From the NCBI RefSeq assembly GCF_009793335.1, contig NZ_WING01000001.1, positions 5,704,001-5,768,000 of the forward strand: a stretch of DNA of 64,000 nt, in the 5' to 3' direction. Within the stretch, counting starts at the first letter, position 1, and the number at the start of each line of letters is the position of its first letter. This DNA comes from Actinomadura sp. J1-007 (lineage in GTDB: Bacteria; Actinomycetota; Actinomycetes; Streptosporangiales; Streptosporangiaceae). Shown here piece after piece: positions 16,495 to 24,193 of this stretch. The notes under the pieces were generated by a model. That model made no database searches. It was not told the DNA's origin and saw only the letters and a list, made by a program, of their open reading frames with translations. The position numbers and the translations under genes were made by a program.

Positions 16495-17634
16495 ATGACC
16501 GTTGACGCTGAACTCCCGGCCGGGGTACCCGGCATCGACGTCCCCCGGCTGGCCGGCTGGCTGGCGCGCGCCCTGCCCGGGTCCGGGCGGATCACCGCGA
16601 TCGACCTCATCGCGGGCGGACGGTCCAACCTGACGTACGCCATCACCCTGGACGGCGGCGACACCGGCGCGGGCGGCGGCACGGGCGCGGGCGGCGGCGG
16701 CACGGAAGGCGGCAGGAGGATCGTGCTGCGGCGGCCTCCGCTCGGGCACGTCCTGCCGACCGCGCACGACATGGGCCGCGAGTACAAGGTGCTGTCCGCG
16801 CTCGGGTCCGGCAGCGACGTGCCGGTGCCGACCACGCTGGCGTTCTGCGAGGACGAGGACGTCATCGGCGCGAAGTTCTACCTCATGGACTTCGTCGAGG
16901 GCCGCGTCCTGCGCACCCGGGAGGACGCCGCCGACCTCGCGCCCGAGCAGGCCGCCGGGCTCAGCGAGGCGCTCGCGCGGGCGCTCGCCGCGATCCACAC
17001 CGTGGACGTCGAGGCGGTCGGGCTCGGCGGGTTCGGCCGGCCGAGCGGCTACATGGCGCGGCAGCTCAAGCGCTGGGGCAAGCAGTGGGACGGCTCGCAG
17101 GAGGCGATCAGGGCGACCGGGACCGTCCGGGACCTGCCCGAGTACGACCGCCTCGTGGCCCGGCTGGACGAGCGGCTGCCCGCCGACGCCCCGGCGCGGC
17201 TCGTGCACGGCGACTTCCGGCTCGACAACGCGCTGGCCCGCCTCGAACCGCGCCCCGAGATCGCCGCCGTCGTGGACTGGGAGATGTCGACGCTCGGCGA
17301 CCCGCTGTCCGACCTCGGGCTCACGCTCGTCTACTGGGCGGAGGCCACCGACGAGCGGCTCCTGCCGGTCGGCGCGACGATCACCACGGCGCCCGGGTTC
17401 CTCACCCGGCGCGCGTTCGCCGAGCGGTACGCGGCGCTCACCGGCTACGACCTCGCCGACCTCGACTTCTACGTGGCGTTCGCCCGGTTCAAGCTCGCGG
17501 TGATCCTGGAGGGCATCCACGCCCGCTACCTCCAGAACGCCACGGTCGGCGAGGGGTTCGACAAGATCGGCGAGGCCGTCCCGACGCTGCTCCAGGGGGC
17601 CCACGCCAACCTGGACAGCCGTTCCCCCTGGTGA
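16495..17634 (+). CDS. Aminoglycoside phosphotransferase-family kinase
   Basis: The 379-residue protein is a protein-kinase-like phosphotransferase. Motifs are IVLRRPPLGHVLPTAHDMGR in the N-lobe, the catalytic loop LVHGDFRLDNALA and the metal-binding DWEMSTLGDPLSDLGL. This pattern is typical of the ACAD10/11-like group that acts in fatty acid or hydroxy-acid breakdown rather than antibiotic resistance. No acyl-CoA dehydrogenase is adjacent, so the substrate stays open. An unusual Gly-rich insert (about residues 54-73) splits two N-lobe strands. The gene appears monocistronic. Confidence 0.9.
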   Translation: MTVDAELPAGVPGIDVPRLAGWLARALPGSGRITAIDLIAGGRSNLTYAITLDGGDTGAGGGTGAGGGGTEGGRRIVLRRPPLGHVLPTAHDMGREYKVLSALGSGSDVPVPTTLAFCEDEDVIGAKFYLMDFVEGRVLRTREDAADLAPEQAAGLSEALARALAAIHTVDVEAVGLGGFGRPSGYMARQLKRWGKQWDGSQEAIRATGTVRDLPEYDRLVARLDERLPADAPARLVHGDFRLDNALARLEPRPEIAAVVDWEMSTLGDPLSDLGLTLVYWAEATDERLLPVGATITTAPGFLTRRAFAERYAALTGYDLADLDFYVAFARFKLAVILEGIHARYLQNATVGEGFDKIGEAVPTLLQGAHANLDSRSPW

Positions 17635-17685
17635 CCCGGCGGCACGGGACGGGCCGTACGGGACGGGCCGGGCGCTGCCGGGCGG

Positions 17686-19164
17686 TCAGCAGTAGGAGAC
17701 CGCCGCGGCGCCGGCCGGGGCGAACGAGACCGCGCCGTTCTTCTCGCCCCAGCACAGGGTGTTGGTGCGCTCGACGGTGACCCCGGTGGTCTCGCCCGGC
17801 GTGAGGTGGCCTCCGCCGCCCGCGCGCAGGTCCCCGTTGACGCCGGCGACGCGCCAGTCGACCGGCCCGCCGACCGCCGTGATCTTCACCGTGCAGCGCT
17901 TGGCGACGTCCATGTCGCAGCCGGCGACGGCGAGGCCGCCGGGGGCCGGGGGACGCGGCTTGGACGGCGCCGGCGGGTGCGGACGCGAGGGCTTGCGCGT
18001 CGCGGTCTTGGACGGCGTCGGCTTCTTCGTCGGCGTCGGGCTCGTGGTCGTCGGCGACGGCGACGCGCTGGTGGGCGCGGGGTCGCTGGGCCGTCCGCTG
18101 GACGGGCCGGACTCCATGGACGGCGCGCCGCCGGACCCGCCGGCCCCGGGTGCCGGACCGTCCGCGGACGTCTTCTCGCCCGTCCCGCCGCCGAACGCCG
18201 TGAACGACACCGCGATCAAGGCGATCACCGCGATCCCGCCCGCGACGGCCAGCAGGATCGGGCGGCGGTGGCTCGCGGGCGCCCGGTCGCGGGCGCGGGC
18301 GGAGGCCGGCTCGTAGGGGAGCGGCCACCCGTACTCGTCGAACGGCTCGGTCCAGGCGGCGATCGCCCTGCGGTTGTCGGCCCGGTCCTCGGCGGTCGCG
18401 GCGGTCAGCACGTCCAGCCGCAGGTCCGCCGGGACCGCCGCGATGGGCAGGACGGACAGCAGCCGGTCGACGGGCAGCGGCGGGGTCTCGCGCGACCCGC
18501 ACGCCGGGCAGCTCGCGACGTGCCGGACGAGCGACGCGGAGGTCTGCGGCGAGAGCGGCCACGACTCGGTGAGCGCGGAGACGCTCGGGCAGTCCTTCCA
18601 GTGGTTCTGCGCGATCAGCGCCGCGTGCAGCGCGTCGGCGAGGTCGTCGCGGGCCTCGGCGACCAGGCGCGTGGTCTCCTCGGCGGGCACGCCGAAGATC
18701 CCGGACAGGTCCACCGCGTCCAGCTCGTGCCGTACGGCGAGGTCGATCGCCTCGCGCTGGCGGCCGTTCAGCGCGGCGAGGGCGCTGTGCGCGAGCAGGC
18801 GCCGCTCCTCGCGGCGGGCGAGCTGCTCGGCGCTCAGGCCGTCGTCGGCCTCGGGCGCCTCCTGCCCGGTGTGCCGGTTCGGGCTGTCGCGCCGCCGCAT
18901 GCACTCCTTGCGCGCCACCGCGTACAGCCAGCCGCGCAGCCGTTCGGGCTCGCCCAGGCGGGCGACGTGCTCGCGCGCGGAGATCAGGCAGTTGCGCAGC
19001 GCCCCCGCCGCCTCCACCCGGTCGCGCAGCAGCCCGTGGCAGTAGTCGTAGAGGAACGGGGCGTAGGTGTCGTAGACCTCGGTCAGCGCGATGACGTCGC
19101 CGGTGCGCAGCGCGTCGGCCAGCCGCTGGTCGTCGAACCCGCCGGCACCAGGCCCTCCGGCCAC
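17686..19164 (-). CDS. Membrane-tethered sigma/anti-sigma fusion protein (paralog 1)
   Basis: Residues about 12-95 look like sigma-70 region 2 (TYAPFLYDYCHGLLRD, RLRGWLYAVARKECMRRR) and about 125-180 like region 4 (LNGRQREAIDLAVRHEL, then VPAEETTRLVAEARDDLADAL). A zf-HC2 anti-sigma motif follows: Cys, 22 residues, then HVASCPAC. One membrane helix (PILLAVAGGIAVIALIAVSF) precedes a long Ser/Thr/Pro-rich stalk and a Cys-containing C-terminal domain of about 85 residues, presumably outside. The layout suggests a sigma factor held at the membrane by its own anti-sigma part and an outer sensor. The GTG at 19164 has GGGAGGA upstream. A 30%-type paralog is the next gene upstream on the same strand. 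Confidence 0.8.
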   Translation of the reverse strand: MAGGPGAGGFDDQRLADALRTGDVIALTEVYDTYAPFLYDYCHGLLRDRVEAAGALRNCLISAREHVARLGEPERLRGWLYAVARKECMRRRDSPNRHTGQEAPEADDGLSAEQLARREERRLLAHSALAALNGRQREAIDLAVRHELDAVDLSGIFGVPAEETTRLVAEARDDLADALHAALIAQNHWKDCPSVSALTESWPLSPQTSASLVRHVASCPACGSRETPPLPVDRLLSVLPIAAVPADLRLDVLTAATAEDRADNRRAIAAWTEPFDEYGWPLPYEPASARARDRAPASHRRPILLAVAGGIAVIALIAVSFTAFGGGTGEKTSADGPAPGAGGSGGAPSMESGPSSGRPSDPAPTSASPSPTTTSPTPTKKPTPSKTATRKPSRPHPPAPSKPRPPAPGGLAVAGCDMDVAKRCTVKITAVGGPVDWRVAGVNGDLRAGGGGHLTPGETTGVTVERTNTLCWGEKNGAVSFAPAGAAAVSYC

Positions 19165-19404
19165 GGGATCCTCCCAGGTGAATCGGTGTTTCGGACACGC
19201 CCCCGGTGAGCGCCGACGCTTGACCGGCCGCTCTGGTTGCCCGATCTTGCCACCAGTTGCCCGAGATTTCTCCGTTTGGTCCCCGATTTTGTGATCAATG
19301 GCCTACGCGCCGTGGCCATCTCCCCTCGTGGGACGCCGGTTTCGACGTTCGATGTGATCTGGCGCACATCATTCGTCGGGAACGGCGCGCTTCGCGGACG
19401 ATGC

Positions 19405-20889
19405 TCAGCCGCCGGCGCACTGCCAGGAGACGGGCGCGGAGCCGTTGGGGGAGAAGCGGACGAAGCCGTTCCCCGAGGAAGGGCAGTCGGCGATCAGCCT
19501 GACCGTGACCGTCTCCGAGGCGCCCTTGGAGAGCCGTCCGCCGCCTACCGCGCTGAGGCCGCTGCTCGTTCCGGCGACCGACCACGTGACCGGGCCGCCG
19601 ACCGCGTGCACCGAGACGCCGCACGAACCGTTCTGCACCGTGATGGTGCATCCGCCGCTGGTCGCCAGGCGGCCGGGCTTGGACGGCTCGCTGGGCGGCG
19701 GCGTCGCGGACGGCCGCTGGGGAGCGCGGGTGCGCTTCGTACGGCTCGGGGTGGGCGTCGTCGGCGTCGGCGTGGGGGACGTGGTGCTCGGCGTCGGCGT
19801 CGGCGACTCGCTCTCGGTGGGCGACTCCGACGGCGCGGCGGACGGGTCGGGCGCCGAGGTGGTGCCCGCGGGCGACCCGGCTCCGGCGCGGCCGTCCGAC
19901 GAGTCGGGCATGACCATGAACGCGCCCGCGACGATGACCAGCACGATCACCGCCGCGGCGACGGCGGGCCACAGCTTGGGCGGGGCGGCGCGACGCCGCC
20001 GGCCCTCTCCGCCCCCGCCGCTCTCCACCGGAACGGGCCAGCCCCAGGTGTCGAACGGCTCGGCGCTGCCCGCGGCGCGGGCCAGCTCCCCGGCGAGCGC
20101 CGGGTCGGTCGCCGTCGCGAGCACGCGCCCGCGCAGGTCGGTGGGCATGAGCGCGACCGGGAGCACCTGGAGGAGGCGCGCGGTGGAGACGGTGCGGTCG
20201 CGGCGTTCGGCGCAGACCCGGCAGGACGCGATGTGGCGGACGAGCCTGCGGGACACCGGCGGCGTCAGCGGCTCCTCGCCGTCGCCGGCCAGCTCCGCGA
20301 CGTGCGGGCAGTCGTCGCGGCCCGTGCGGGCGATCACGGCGGCGGCGAGCGCGTCGTCGAGCCGGGCGCGGGCCGTCCCCGCGAGGTCGGTGGCCTCCTG
20401 GGCGCCGATGCCGAGCGCGCCGCCGATCTCCGCCGCGTCCAGGCCGTGCCGCAGGAGCAGGTCGAGGGTCTCGCGCTCGCGGCCCCGCAGCCCGGACAGG
20501 GCGCCGTGGACGAGCCGCCGCGTCTCCAGGCGGTGCGCCCGCTCTCCGGCGTCGAGGAAGACGTCCTCGACCTCCGGGGCCTCGTGCCGTTCGGCGGGCC
20601 GGTCGGGGTCGGCGAGGCGGCGCAGGCACTGGTTGCGGGCCAGGGCGTACAGCCAGCTCCGGAACCGTTCGGGCTCCTGGAGCAGGCCGATGTGCGTGGT
20701 GGCCGCGATGAGCGCGTCGTGCAGGGCGCCCGCCGCCGAGTCCTGGTCGCGCAGCAGCGCGTGGCAGTAGTCGTAGAGCCGGGCCGCGTACCGGTCCATG
20801 AGGTGGATCAGCGCGCCGCCGTCGCCGGACGCCAGGGTCTCGGCCAGGCGCTCGTCGTCCGCGCGATCGAGACTGGGCCAACCGGACAC
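19405..20889 (-). CDS. Membrane-tethered sigma/anti-sigma fusion protein (paralog 2)
   Basis: The order of parts equals that of the neighbour downstream: region-2-like segment (RYAARLYDYCHALLRDQ, RFRSWLYALARNQCLRRL), region-4-like segment (GLRGRERETLDLLLRHGLDA, then IGAQEATDLAGTARARL), zf-HC2 motif (Cys, 24 residues, HIASCRVC), a conserved EPFDTWGWPVP stretch, one membrane helix (LWPAVAAAVIVLVIVAGAFM), a Ser/Thr/Pro stalk with TPTPSTTSPTPTPTTPTPS, and a C-terminal beta-rich domain containing VGGPVTWSVAG. The same GPV-x-W-x-VAG core occurs in the paralog. The GTG at 20889 has the same GGGAGGA ribosome binding site. The gap of 240 bases between the two suggests separate promoters. The C-terminus faces outward if the N-terminus is cytoplasmic. 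Confidence 0.8.
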   Translation of the reverse strand: MSGWPSLDRADDERLAETLASGDGGALIHLMDRYAARLYDYCHALLRDQDSAAGALHDALIAATTHIGLLQEPERFRSWLYALARNQCLRRLADPDRPAERHEAPEVEDVFLDAGERAHRLETRRLVHGALSGLRGRERETLDLLLRHGLDAAEIGGALGIGAQEATDLAGTARARLDDALAAAVIARTGRDDCPHVAELAGDGEEPLTPPVSRRLVRHIASCRVCAERRDRTVSTARLLQVLPVALMPTDLRGRVLATATDPALAGELARAAGSAEPFDTWGWPVPVESGGGGEGRRRRAAPPKLWPAVAAAVIVLVIVAGAFMVMPDSSDGRAGAGSPAGTTSAPDPSAAPSESPTESESPTPTPSTTSPTPTPTTPTPSRTKRTRAPQRPSATPPPSEPSKPGRLATSGGCTITVQNGSCGVSVHAVGGPVTWSVAGTSSGLSAVGGGRLSKGASETVTVRLIADCPSSGNGFVRFSPNGSAPVSWQCAGG

Positions 20890-21283
20890 GAGGTCCTCCC
20901 GTGGCAGATGGTTCGGGCCGTCAACGGCTCGCCTGCGCGGCGCGCGGTCTCCGGGAACGGGCCGGGCTCCGCGCCGTCGGGGAAGCCGTGGTGCTCATCG
21001 GCCCCCGGTCTCCGGGGGCGCCCCCCGCCGCGGGTCAGGGGGAGAAGAAAGAAGGTCGGAGGCCCGACGGCCCCGCTCCCCGTCGGGCCTCCACCAAGAA
21101 AGACGGGCGACGGATGCGTCCGGTTGACACGAGTTGGCGAAGAAATCTCCGGAACCTCGGCCCGTTCCCCCGCCGCGCCCGCGCACCGGCCCGCGAGCTG
21201 CGAACGGTCACGCAGCGTCAGGCCGCACAAACTTTATGCTGTTCAGGGCGTTGCGGGAGGGAACGGGCACCGGTGACGCCGCG
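20890..21283. other. Intergenic region with terminator hairpins
   Basis: This 394-base gap holds the upstream region of paralog 2 and the end of the VWA gene. It contains the 13-base-pair hairpin at 21058-21092 and a second GC hairpin at about 21001-21019 (GCCCCCGG/CCGGGGGC). No gene was seen. Confidence 0.5.
21058..21092 (-). terminator. Terminator hairpin downstream of the SBP-VWA gene
   Basis: GGAGGCCCGACGG and its exact complement form a 13-base-pair stem with a nine-base loop. On the minus strand the stem is followed by a pyrimidine tract, GACCTTCTTTCTTCT, fitting termination of the leftward VWA-protein transcript about 190 bases past its stop. Confidence 0.6.
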
Positions 21284-23935
21284 TCACTGCGTGATGCGGC
21301 GGGACAGCATCCTGAGGAAGATCTTGGAGATCTCCTGCGGGGTCATCGCGATCTGCACGTTGCCGTTGGTGAGCTTCGCGATCCGCTCCAGCTCGTTGCG
21401 GTCCACGCCCTTGCCGAACCCGATCATGTTGACCTGGATCGGCTTGTTGGGGTCGATCATCCGCTTCAGCCGGTCCAGCGTCTGCTCCAGGGTCGGCCCG
21501 TCGGTGTCGTCGTTCTTGCCGTCGGTCAGCAGCAGGATGGAGTTGCCGAACTCCGGCTTGTAGGTCCGGTTCATCTCCTTGTACGCGGCGAGCACCGAGT
21601 CGTACAGGCCGGTGTTGCCGTCCATCTTCGGGCGCATCTGGTTCAGCGTCGACAGCACCAGGTTGCGGCGCGTGCTGGAGCCGACGCGCTCGCCGAGCGG
21701 GCCGACCGACACCGACTGGCGGTAGTCCTTCGCGCCGTCCATCTTGGTGGAGAACAGCCACTGCCCGAGCTCGGTGTCGTTCGACATCATCGACAGGCCG
21801 CCCTGCGACACCTCGGCGATCGCCTGGAGCCGCGTCTTGCCGCCGCCGACCTTCTCGGCCATCGAGCCCGACACGTCGATCAGCGTCAGCATCCGCAGGC
21901 CGAGGGTCAGCTTCGACCACGCCTGCATGACCCCCGAGACCTCCTTGGCGCTCGGCGGGGGGAGCTGCCGGGGCCGCGCCGGGCTGACGCCCAGCTTCGC
22001 GGTGAACCCGCCCGGCGCCTTGCCGTCCGGCGACCGGAACCCGAGGGAGCGCACGTCGTCGCGCGTCGTCTCGGTGTTCATCGCCTTCTCCAGCAGCCCC
22101 GCGGCCTTCCGCCGGTCGCCGTCCCCGGTCGTGACGGTGTACGGGTAGTCCAGCGAGAGCGTCCCCTCCTGCGGGTACAGCGCGACGGCGGGCTCGGACG
22201 GCCCGGTGCGGTTGTAGTTCCACAGGGCCTGCTCGGACGACAGCGAGATCGGCTGCTTGCCGGTCCGGCCCTTGCGGAACTGCCCGAACTGGGCCGTCGC
22301 GTTCGGCACCGTGCTCTCGCGGACGGTGCGGACGATCCCGGTGAAGATCGACTCCTTGTTGGGGTCGTTCGCCAGCAGCGCGTTGGTGACCATCAGCCCG
22401 CCCATGCCGGCGGCGTTGCGCGCCGGGTCGGGCACGAGCAGCCGCACCGAGCCGGCCGGGATCATCTGGTTCTTGGTCACGCCGCCGCCCGCGGTGCCGC
22501 CCGCCGCCTTCAGCAGGTTGTCCCAGGACGGCGCCGCCGTGATGCCCTCCTGCTTCAGGCGGTTCGCGAGCGTCTGGGGCAGCCCGACGACGATCGGGCT
22601 CATGGCGAGGGACGTCTTGGTGCTCTGGACGGCCTTGTCGTCGCCCGACGTGCCGCGGACCATCGACGTCCACATGGAGGTGTCGGGGATCCACACGTCC
22701 GGCCGCTCGTTGCCGGCGCCCGCCACGCCCTGCCCGCTCAGCAGCGTCGCCACGGACGCGGGCTCGCTCCTGGTGACGCGCGTCTTCACGCACTTGCCGC
22801 TGATCTTGTGCTTGGCGTCGTTGAACCGGCCCGCCGCCTTGACCACGGCCGGCTGGATGTCGGGCGCCGCCGCCACGTTGAGGGTGAGCGCCCCGTCGCC
22901 GTCGCACCCGCCGCCGCTCTCGGCGAACGCGTACACGCCGACGCCGAGCAGCAGCGCGAGCCCGACCGCGCCCGCCATCGGGCCGATCAGCGCCGTCGCG
23001 CTGCGCTTGCGCTTGCGCCGCCCGTACTCGTAGTCGCCGCTGCCTCCGCCGTAACCGCCGGAGCCGCCGCTGCCGCTCCCGCTGCCGCCTGAGCCTCCGT
23101 AGCCGCCGGACTCGGAGGAGCCGCCCGCGCGCCCGCCGAAGAACCCGGTCTCGCCGCCGTCGGAGTTGCGGATCGAGTCGTAGCCGCCGTACCCGCCGGA
23201 CGAGGACGCGCCGGGGCCCTGCGCCGAGGCGGACGGCAGCGGCATGCCGCCCGTTCCGGTGGAGCCCTCGGGTACGCGCGCGCCCGGGGGAGGGGCGGCG
23301 GGCGTTCCGTAGCCGCCGCCCTGCCCGGACGTGCCGGGCGGACGGCCGAGGCCGTAGCCCCCCGCGTCGGAGGCGCCGGTGAAACCGCCCGCACCGAAGG
23401 CCGGCTCCTCCCCGGGCCGGGGCACGAACCACTCGTGCGTCTCGCCCGTCCCCGCCGCGCCGGGCTGCTGCGGTGCGCCGGGTTGGGGCGTGCCGGGCTG
23501 GGGCGTGCCCGGCTGGGGCGTGCCGGGAACGCCGGACGACGCTCCGGGCCCGCTGGACGCGGTCGGCGTGCCGGGGAGGCCGGGCGTGCCGAGGACGTCC
23601 GGCGAGCCGGGGGCGGCCGGGGGTCCGGCCTGGCCCGCGGGGCCGGGAGGGCTCAACGGGTCGGAGAGCGGAGCGCCGAACGGCACGTCCTGCGTGCCGG
23701 AGGGCGGCGCAGCCTGCGGCCCGGACGGCGGTCCGGTCGGCGGTACGGCTTGCGGCCCGGACGGTGGCCCGGCTTGCGGCCCGGTCGGCGGGACGACCGG
23801 TGGGCTCTGGCTGTCGCGCGGGCCGAACCAGTCGGACGACCCGTCGTTCGCGGGTCCGAAGACCGGCCTGGAGGGGTCGTGCCCGCCGTCATCCGGCGTC
23901 CCCTCGGGGAAGTCATTGCGATGACGTCCGCTCAC
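21284..23935 (-). CDS. Membrane-anchored protein with extracellular substrate-binding and von Willebrand A domains
   Basis: With the GTG at 23935 (GAGGG six bases upstream) the protein has 883 residues. The first about 320 residues are a low-complexity cytoplasmic tail rich in Pro, Gly and Ser, with PGTPQPGTPQPG-type repeats and then Gly-Ser-Tyr repeats. One membrane helix follows (LIGPMAGAVGLALLLGVGVY). Outside are a solute-binding-like domain (VAAAPDIQPAVVKAAGRFN, then VWIPDTSMW) and a VWA domain with the metal site DVSGSMAEK. Proteins of this build occur across actinobacteria and probably sense or present ligands at the envelope; the ligand is unknown. No transporter genes are adjacent, so it is not a normal ABC binding protein. 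Confidence 0.85.
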   Translation of the reverse strand: MSGRHRNDFPEGTPDDGGHDPSRPVFGPANDGSSDWFGPRDSQSPPVVPPTGPQAGPPSGPQAVPPTGPPSGPQAAPPSGTQDVPFGAPLSDPLSPPGPAGQAGPPAAPGSPDVLGTPGLPGTPTASSGPGASSGVPGTPQPGTPQPGTPQPGAPQQPGAAGTGETHEWFVPRPGEEPAFGAGGFTGASDAGGYGLGRPPGTSGQGGGYGTPAAPPPGARVPEGSTGTGGMPLPSASAQGPGASSSGGYGGYDSIRNSDGGETGFFGGRAGGSSESGGYGGSGGSGSGSGGSGGYGGGSGDYEYGRRKRKRSATALIGPMAGAVGLALLLGVGVYAFAESGGGCDGDGALTLNVAAAPDIQPAVVKAAGRFNDAKHKISGKCVKTRVTRSEPASVATLLSGQGVAGAGNERPDVWIPDTSMWTSMVRGTSGDDKAVQSTKTSLAMSPIVVGLPQTLANRLKQEGITAAPSWDNLLKAAGGTAGGGVTKNQMIPAGSVRLLVPDPARNAAGMGGLMVTNALLANDPNKESIFTGIVRTVRESTVPNATAQFGQFRKGRTGKQPISLSSEQALWNYNRTGPSEPAVALYPQEGTLSLDYPYTVTTGDGDRRKAAGLLEKAMNTETTRDDVRSLGFRSPDGKAPGGFTAKLGVSPARPRQLPPPSAKEVSGVMQAWSKLTLGLRMLTLIDVSGSMAEKVGGGKTRLQAIAEVSQGGLSMMSNDTELGQWLFSTKMDGAKDYRQSVSVGPLGERVGSSTRRNLVLSTLNQMRPKMDGNTGLYDSVLAAYKEMNRTYKPEFGNSILLLTDGKNDDTDGPTLEQTLDRLKRMIDPNKPIQVNMIGFGKGVDRNELERIAKLTNGNVQIAMTPQEISKIFLRMLSRRITQ

Positions 23936-24193
23936 GGCTGCCCTCGATTCACCAGAAACCCGTCGATGTTCCCCGGCACTGTAGTAGTACGACCGGGAGG
24001 TTACAAAGAACTCAAATCTGATGATGACGCAGGTCATGGGCCTACGTCTTGAAAAGCGCGGCAACGTGACGGCCCGTCACGCCCCGCGTTCGGGGCCGCG
24101 GGAGGCCGCGCGGCAACTCGGCGGCCCGGCCGAACGTCAGTAGATCTGGGACCCCGCGAGCTCGCGGGAGGCCCGGACGAGGGGGCGTGGCCG

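Follow-up and report, generated by a model that had tools for sequence, protein, structure and literature searches.

Two adjacent genes of the window, the analysed 64,000-nucleotide stretch of the 10.3 Mb genome of Actinomadura sp. J1-007, each encode a sigma fold, a zinc anti-sigma motif, a membrane helix and an outer domain in one chain, and in both proteins (U and D) the residues that read the -35 element or form the region 2.2 box in ordinary ECF sigma factors are replaced in the aligned sequences. The explanation we prefer, with a probability of about 0.5, is that U and D are self-inhibited one-chain membrane receptors, the sigma part of which would be freed by proteolysis and would then act as a handicapped sigma factor. 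A preliminary description of the locus had proposed the sigma fold and the whole one-piece plan, which were both recovered here. Its further assumptions of a novel architecture, of two different signals and of a normal sigma factor in the N-terminal part were not supported.

Both genes are located on the minus strand, U first (20889-19405, 494 aa) and then D (19164-17686, 492 aa), and the two proteins are homologues with 47% identity from end to end. The order of the parts is the same in both. The chain begins with a sigma2 domain, which a linker joins to the sigma4-like domain, and continues with the C-H-C-C zinc motif, the FDxxGWP motif and the membrane helix; the Ser/Thr/Pro stalk and a four-Cys beta-sandwich complete it. 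For U, sigma2 covers residues 9-93 (20611-20865, with helices over 9-93), the sigma4-like domain, in which the recognition helix is devoid of the usual basic residues, 114-189 (20323-20550), the zinc motif 194-226 (20212-20310), the juxtamembrane motif FDTWGWP 279-285 (20035-20055), the membrane helix 306-326 (19912-19974), the stalk 331-403 (19681-19899) and the outer Ig/BACON-like domain 406-491 (19417-19674). The corresponding parts of D are sigma2 at residues 12-92 (18889-19131), the sigma4-like domain at 112-191 (18592-18831), the zinc motif at 192-222 (18499-18591), FDEYGWP at 275-281 (18322-18342), the membrane helix at 303-323 (18196-18258), the stalk at 325-408 (17941-18192) and the outer domain at 409-492 (17689-17940). 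A conserved neighbour encoding an SBP_bac_11 plus VWA protein lies upstream (21284-24064, minus strand).

The tandem pair was found in 39 loci including the window, nearly all of them Actinomadura, to which the closest named relatives by the U/D locus also belong. In the 38 other pair loci, U is preceded on its own strand by the gene of the VWA/solute-binding protein. A single copy, flanked on either side by the same neighbours, is present in four loci (L047, L049, L051 and L058), three of which are named Actinomadura. In the tree, the D proteins form one clade with a support of 100/100 (23 rows), while these single-copy relatives group with U and D branches outside them with a weak support of 89/75. 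This branching may mean that the duplication predates the genus and that D was lost in places. At the level of the class, a profile match with an E-value up to 1e-10 was obtained in 32 of 148 sampled genomes, a number which includes the genome of the window, results from scoring at most ten candidates per genome and also counts short frames other than one-piece proteins. In 13 of the 19 class loci fetched from other genomes, a single frame contains a sigma-like sequence, a zinc motif and a hydrophobic helix, which agrees with the published ECF48/52/53 plan, and the outer parts vary. Six of the 19 failed this filter; three of them (L179-L181) show long frames with the juxtamembrane motif.

Confidence is high over the globular regions of the AlphaFold2 models (mean pLDDT of 84.4 for U and 83.8 for D), but poor in the stalk and in the stretch preceding the membrane, as well as in residues 1-8 of D. 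The check suggested earlier, whether the N-terminal part lacks a sigma fold, was run on these models, and the fold is present. In the comparison with solved structures, sigma2 and sigma4 are arranged as in the anti-sigma-bound SigW and CnrH and unlike in sigma factors inside transcription complexes, the closest solved fold being SigW in its inhibited state with RsiW. The Pfam model Sigma70_r2 exceeded its cut-off of 24 bits in both proteins (33.3 bits for U, 24.5 bits for D). A sigma4 part is suggested by the fold and a profile match, though no Pfam region-4 match was obtained in U or D at an E-value up to 1.

According to the parts of the SigW literature cited here, the residues touching the -35 element are T168, K170, T171, R172, H174 and R175. 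Basic residues occupy at least two of the three positions of K170, R172 and R175 in 25 of 27 ordinary ECF sigma factors of the host genome, a set that leans canonical since it was drawn from the best 30 of 150 region-4 matches (three with stops within the stretch cut were left out). The same holds true for both of the two distant paralogues, but for none of 29 U, 23 D and 11 other relatives, the residue counts having taken in 29 of the 39 U and 23 of the 46 D. The position of R172 is occupied by leucine in 28/29 U and 21/23 D, and that of T168 by Glu in 23/29 U and by Glu or Asp in all 23 D. One basic residue is left at the position of R175 in 2/29 U and 11/23 D, which argues against a complete loss of the -35 contacts. 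The mean net charge of the 16-residue recognition helix is +4.4 in the ordinary ECFs (n=27), -1.45 in U (n=29) and -3.26 in D (n=23). For 13 one-piece relatives from other genomes it ranges by eye from -2 to +3, indicating a trend that is common to them, but not uniform.

A similar replacement was observed in region 2.2, which lies, according to the passages cited for it, in the sigma part that mainly serves to bind the polymerase clamp. The box reads AED..Q in the ordinary ECFs (D in 25/26 and Q in 19/26, the misaligned row L174 being left out), G..H in most U (G in 22/29, H in 29/29) and G..R in 23/23 D. By eye, regions 2.3-2.4 of sigma2 show nothing unusual, and no other part of the family is as conserved as sigma2.

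For the preferred reading, it is assumed that the ECF sigma2-sigma4 fold is held closed in the cytoplasm, most likely by the zinc module following in the same chain. One predicted helix would span the membrane, and the flexible stalk would bear the four-Cys Ig/BACON-like domain and allow it to meet a ligand of the cell surface or wall. Such a signal would most likely set off a cleavage near the membrane, possibly around the FDxxGWP motif, and thus free the sigma part; we know of no strict sequence motif of a protease. Having lost its -35-reading face, the freed part would rely mainly on sigma2, or work together with a partner, and would not behave as an ordinary -35/-10 sigma factor.

The zinc ligands C-x(n)-H-x3-C-x2-C are present in U and D and invariant in the family. 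With the Pfam model zf-HC2, D scored 12 bits, below the cut-off of 22.2, and U gave no match, while 8 of 12 zinc segments were matched at an E-value up to 1. A profile of the zinc segment retrieved nothing meaningful from the solved structures, and the profile of the whole family retrieved on the anti-sigma side only RsiW (E 0.39) and DdvA (E 0.51). The FDxxGWP motif is conserved on the cytoplasmic side and occurs in 0 of 30 ordinary ECF loci, a weak control because ordinary ECFs have no C-terminal extension.

The outer domains, the supposed difference of which had been taken to suggest two signals, turned out to be homologous and Ig/BACON-like with four Cys each, even if the outer domain and the stalk count among those parts of U and D that change faster. 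Neither protein gave a match, let alone one over the cut-off, to the Pfam model BACON. This model matched one of 14 family outer domains (E 0.023), and its cut-off was exceeded in the class relatives L182, L185, L190 and L192 (10 scanned). The best value of a profile search with the outer domain, 0.02, is unconvincing.

The replaced residues are also the starting point for a serious rival explanation, which we regard as quite possible. It states that U and D are pseudo-sigma receptors, in which the sigma fold would be a protein-binding module and the -35 face of sigma4 would now be a fixed docking face. The ligand of sigma2 would not be promoter DNA but, for instance, an anti-sigma factor, or the polymerase with sigma2 as a decoy, comparable to the sigma-like domain of PhyR with NepR, and the output would consist of the capture or release of a partner. 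PhyR is a response regulator and differs in this respect, since no receiver domain was found by Pfam in U or D. The ordinary appearance of regions 2.3-2.4 and the conservation of sigma2, which a DNA-melting role would explain, speak against a pseudo-sigma function, as does the basic residue kept at the R175 position. Furthermore, no binding partner was identified, and mutation of SCO4117, another one-piece ECF, alters transcription according to the cited passages of PMC5826349.

Relatives without sigma4 were also found. In six genus genomes, frames of 284-350 codons (L136-L141) were read in which a sigma2-like domain leads straight into a membrane helix, a stalk and a similar outer domain; sigma4 and the zinc motif are absent from these six frames. 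L142, read as a whole, is a 1116-codon frame with a very long linker instead, and L143 and L144 probably belong to the same long-linker type, judging by how long their frames are and by the profile matches found at either end. The sigma2 domain of these relatives is clear only by the family profile (e.g. E 4e-11 and 5e-11), whereas the Pfam sigma2 model gave an E-value of 0.058 for one and no match for another.

Upstream of U, an ECF-type promoter-like motif, GTGTCAACC-N16-CGTC, is located at 21102-21130 on the minus strand. Of the 39 U loci, 37 have the pattern CAACC-N16-CGTC, and the remaining two read GTGAACC at the same place. The promoter of U has a strong -35 box, yet neither U nor D has the residues for reading a -35 element, which suggests that a third, ordinary and competent ECF sigma factor drives U. 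Sigma70-consensus promoters were not found within 17600-21400.

Starting 8-9 nt after the -10 element, a 35-nt hairpin, GGAGGCCCGACGGGGAGCGGGGCCGTCGGGCCTCC (21058-21092, minus strand), is identical in 39 of 39 U loci, whereas the three adjoining 35-nt blocks show mean identities of only 0.59, 0.63 and 0.48. It was also found in 13 of 18 other loci, which include eight cut by a contig end, most of these eight being probably U genes. Eight of the 13 copies are identical, while five have a stem shortened by one pair, with one base gone from each arm and the pairing kept. Allowing up to 3 mismatches, the 29-nt core occurs once in each of six genus genomes tested and in none of nine other genomes tested; upstream of D the hairpin is present in 0 of 46 cases. 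Rfam gave no match for the U leader or hairpin, and two chance-level matches elsewhere. No clear T-run follows the hairpin in most of 14 rows. One terminator-like site (21055-21068) lies over its 3' arm, with 0.9 such sites expected by chance.

The region upstream of D showed a different picture. A conserved element, GTGGCAAGATCGGGCAACC (19235-19253, minus strand), is possibly an extended -10. Its pattern GTGGCA[AG]GAT precedes 42 of the 46 D genes and also stands for the conserved TGGTGGCAAGATC-GGCAACC block that is particular to D. The element is followed by a leader hairpin (19208-19233, minus strand) with a stem covarying between species, in which three of nine pairs are changed on both sides among 16 sequences. 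A promoter CAACC-N16-CGTC shared by both genes, in line with the earlier proposal of conserved promoters upstream of both, was considered and dropped for D, because the CGTC there lies within this covarying hairpin.

These upstream elements allow an evaluation of a second alternative, that U and D form an ordinary autoregulated ECF pair, whose released sigma parts would recognise CAACC-N16-CGTC and amplify their own genes. The conserved promoter of U and the similar string before 28 of 46 D genes would fit this alternative, as would the abundance of the pattern in the genome with 50 matches compared to 7 for the reversed control (76 to 19 with one mismatch). Codon use may be a cause of this excess, and many matches may lie in coding sequence. 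Nonetheless, such a pair is improbable, since the proteins have no -35-reading residues, the D string coincides with the leader hairpin and, in D, the invariant block is found upstream of this string. In addition, the exact TGTCAACC-N16-CGTC has three matches in the genome, and the other two are, by eye, without an obviously fitting gene. The last alternative, relics losing their function, could be deduced from the weak Pfam scores and lost contact residues, but is very improbable, being largely refuted by dN/dS values of 0.22/0.22 for sigma2 and 0.35/0.24 for sigma4 (U, 7 pairs/D, 40 pairs; outer domain 0.50/0.52) as well as by the invariant zinc ligands, the common synteny and the invariant leader hairpin. 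As estimated from these ratios, sigma2 and sigma4 are under purifying selection, and the changes in U and D are not decay.

A wider proposal is put forward only tentatively and is rather doubtful as a whole. It combines an Actinomadura family of pseudo-sigma receptors, one line of which would be cut to sigma2, helix and outer domain, signalling by partner capture or release, with a founding locus under an ECF-type promoter and the invariant 35-nt RNA (or DNA) hairpin, placed where the transcript begins, as a dedicated regulatory element. The hairpin would be a separate regulatory element and is easy to test.

It is unsettled whether the actinobacterial one-piece ECF proteins are promoter-reading sigma factors. 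U and D sharpen this question, since the loss of DNA contacts is fixed in the proteins sampled, yet the domain is under strong selection. A pseudo-sigma membrane receptor, if true, would in our judgement be an unusual signalling device, and none of the papers listed by the literature search seemed to describe one. While the one-piece architecture is known, what is new is the pair in 39 loci, the altered -35 face of sigma4 and region 2.2 box, the relatives that have sigma2 but no sigma4, and the invariant hairpin.

The architecture had been regarded as novel; however, it was described before for ECF48, ECF52 and ECF53, with SCO4117 of Streptomyces coelicolor (ECF52) as the studied case, in the cited parts of PMC5826349 and PMC8999054 (parts of PMC10766802, PMC7406223, PMC6713349 and PMC5358783 are cited further). 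According to these parts, ECF52 is said to be confined to Actinobacteria, and a proteolytic release was proposed. Like U and D, SCO4117 unites in a single chain a sigma domain, a zinc finger, a membrane helix, a Pro-rich stretch and an outer domain for binding. Its authors, in the passages cited, call their proposed promoter motif theoretical and report that overproduction of the protein failed. The outer domain of SCO4117 is described there as a carbohydrate-binding module (smart00776), unlike the small four-Cys Ig/BACON-like domain of U and D; using Pfam models only, no such module was found in U, D or the 14 family outer domains. The cited SCO4117 passages make no mention of lost -35 contacts, a tandem pair or a leader hairpin, the comparison with U and D being one of descriptions. 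ECF53 and ECF48 share a C-terminal zinc finger and one or two membrane helices, with regulatory extensions that can reach 400 residues (PMC8999054, in the part cited). Likened by the description in the same source, IutY (ECF243) also combines sigma and membrane anti-sigma factor in one chain activated by proteolysis (PMC8999054), but unlike U and D it belongs to Gram-negative iron cell-surface signalling. The SigW/RsiW system shares the inhibited sigma fold and, as far as the cited literature describes RsiW, the CHCC zinc ligands. In contrast to U and D, SigW and RsiW are separate proteins in Bacillus, and SigW keeps, according to the same literature, the -35-contact residues K170, T171, R172 and R175.

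The region upstream of U, the first of the two one-piece sigma-factor-like proteins, contains a 35-nt hairpin (window 21058-21092, minus strand), which is identical in sequence in all 39 U loci and is immediately preceded by the ECF-type promoter. A search of six genomes of the genus gave a single match to this hairpin per genome, and an Rfam search with it gave no match. For D, the paralogous second protein, the upstream region (window 19208-19253, minus strand) comprises the block TGGTGGCAAGATC-GGCAACC together with a leader hairpin, the stem of which covaries. Further upstream of U, the gene for an SBP_bac_11 + VWA protein (window 21284-24064, minus strand) was kept in 38/38 tandem loci besides that of the window, and the protein is a possible functional partner.

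In Actinoallomurus, two additional one-piece copies were observed in tandem (L048:9449-12618), both of which are excluded from the D clade. The open frames of L136-L141, read in six genomes, lack both sigma4 and the zinc motif; they carry a sigma2-like domain followed by a membrane helix, a stalk and an outer domain of similar kind. A sigma2-only relative in the window's own genome (L067, G000:C1:6486187-6487011) appears to be split across two frames. In the 1116-codon frame of L142, a very long Ala/Pro/acid-rich linker joins a sigma2-like domain to a membrane helix and an outer domain that is again similar; L142 was read whole, and L143 and L144 probably share this layout, judging by their frame length and by profile matches at both ends.

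A juxtamembrane motif of the F-D-x-x-G-F-P type was found in 10 of the 19 one-piece or related loci of other genomes (L177-L181, L183, L190-L192 and L194), with L183 showing the variant L-T-x-x-G-F-P.
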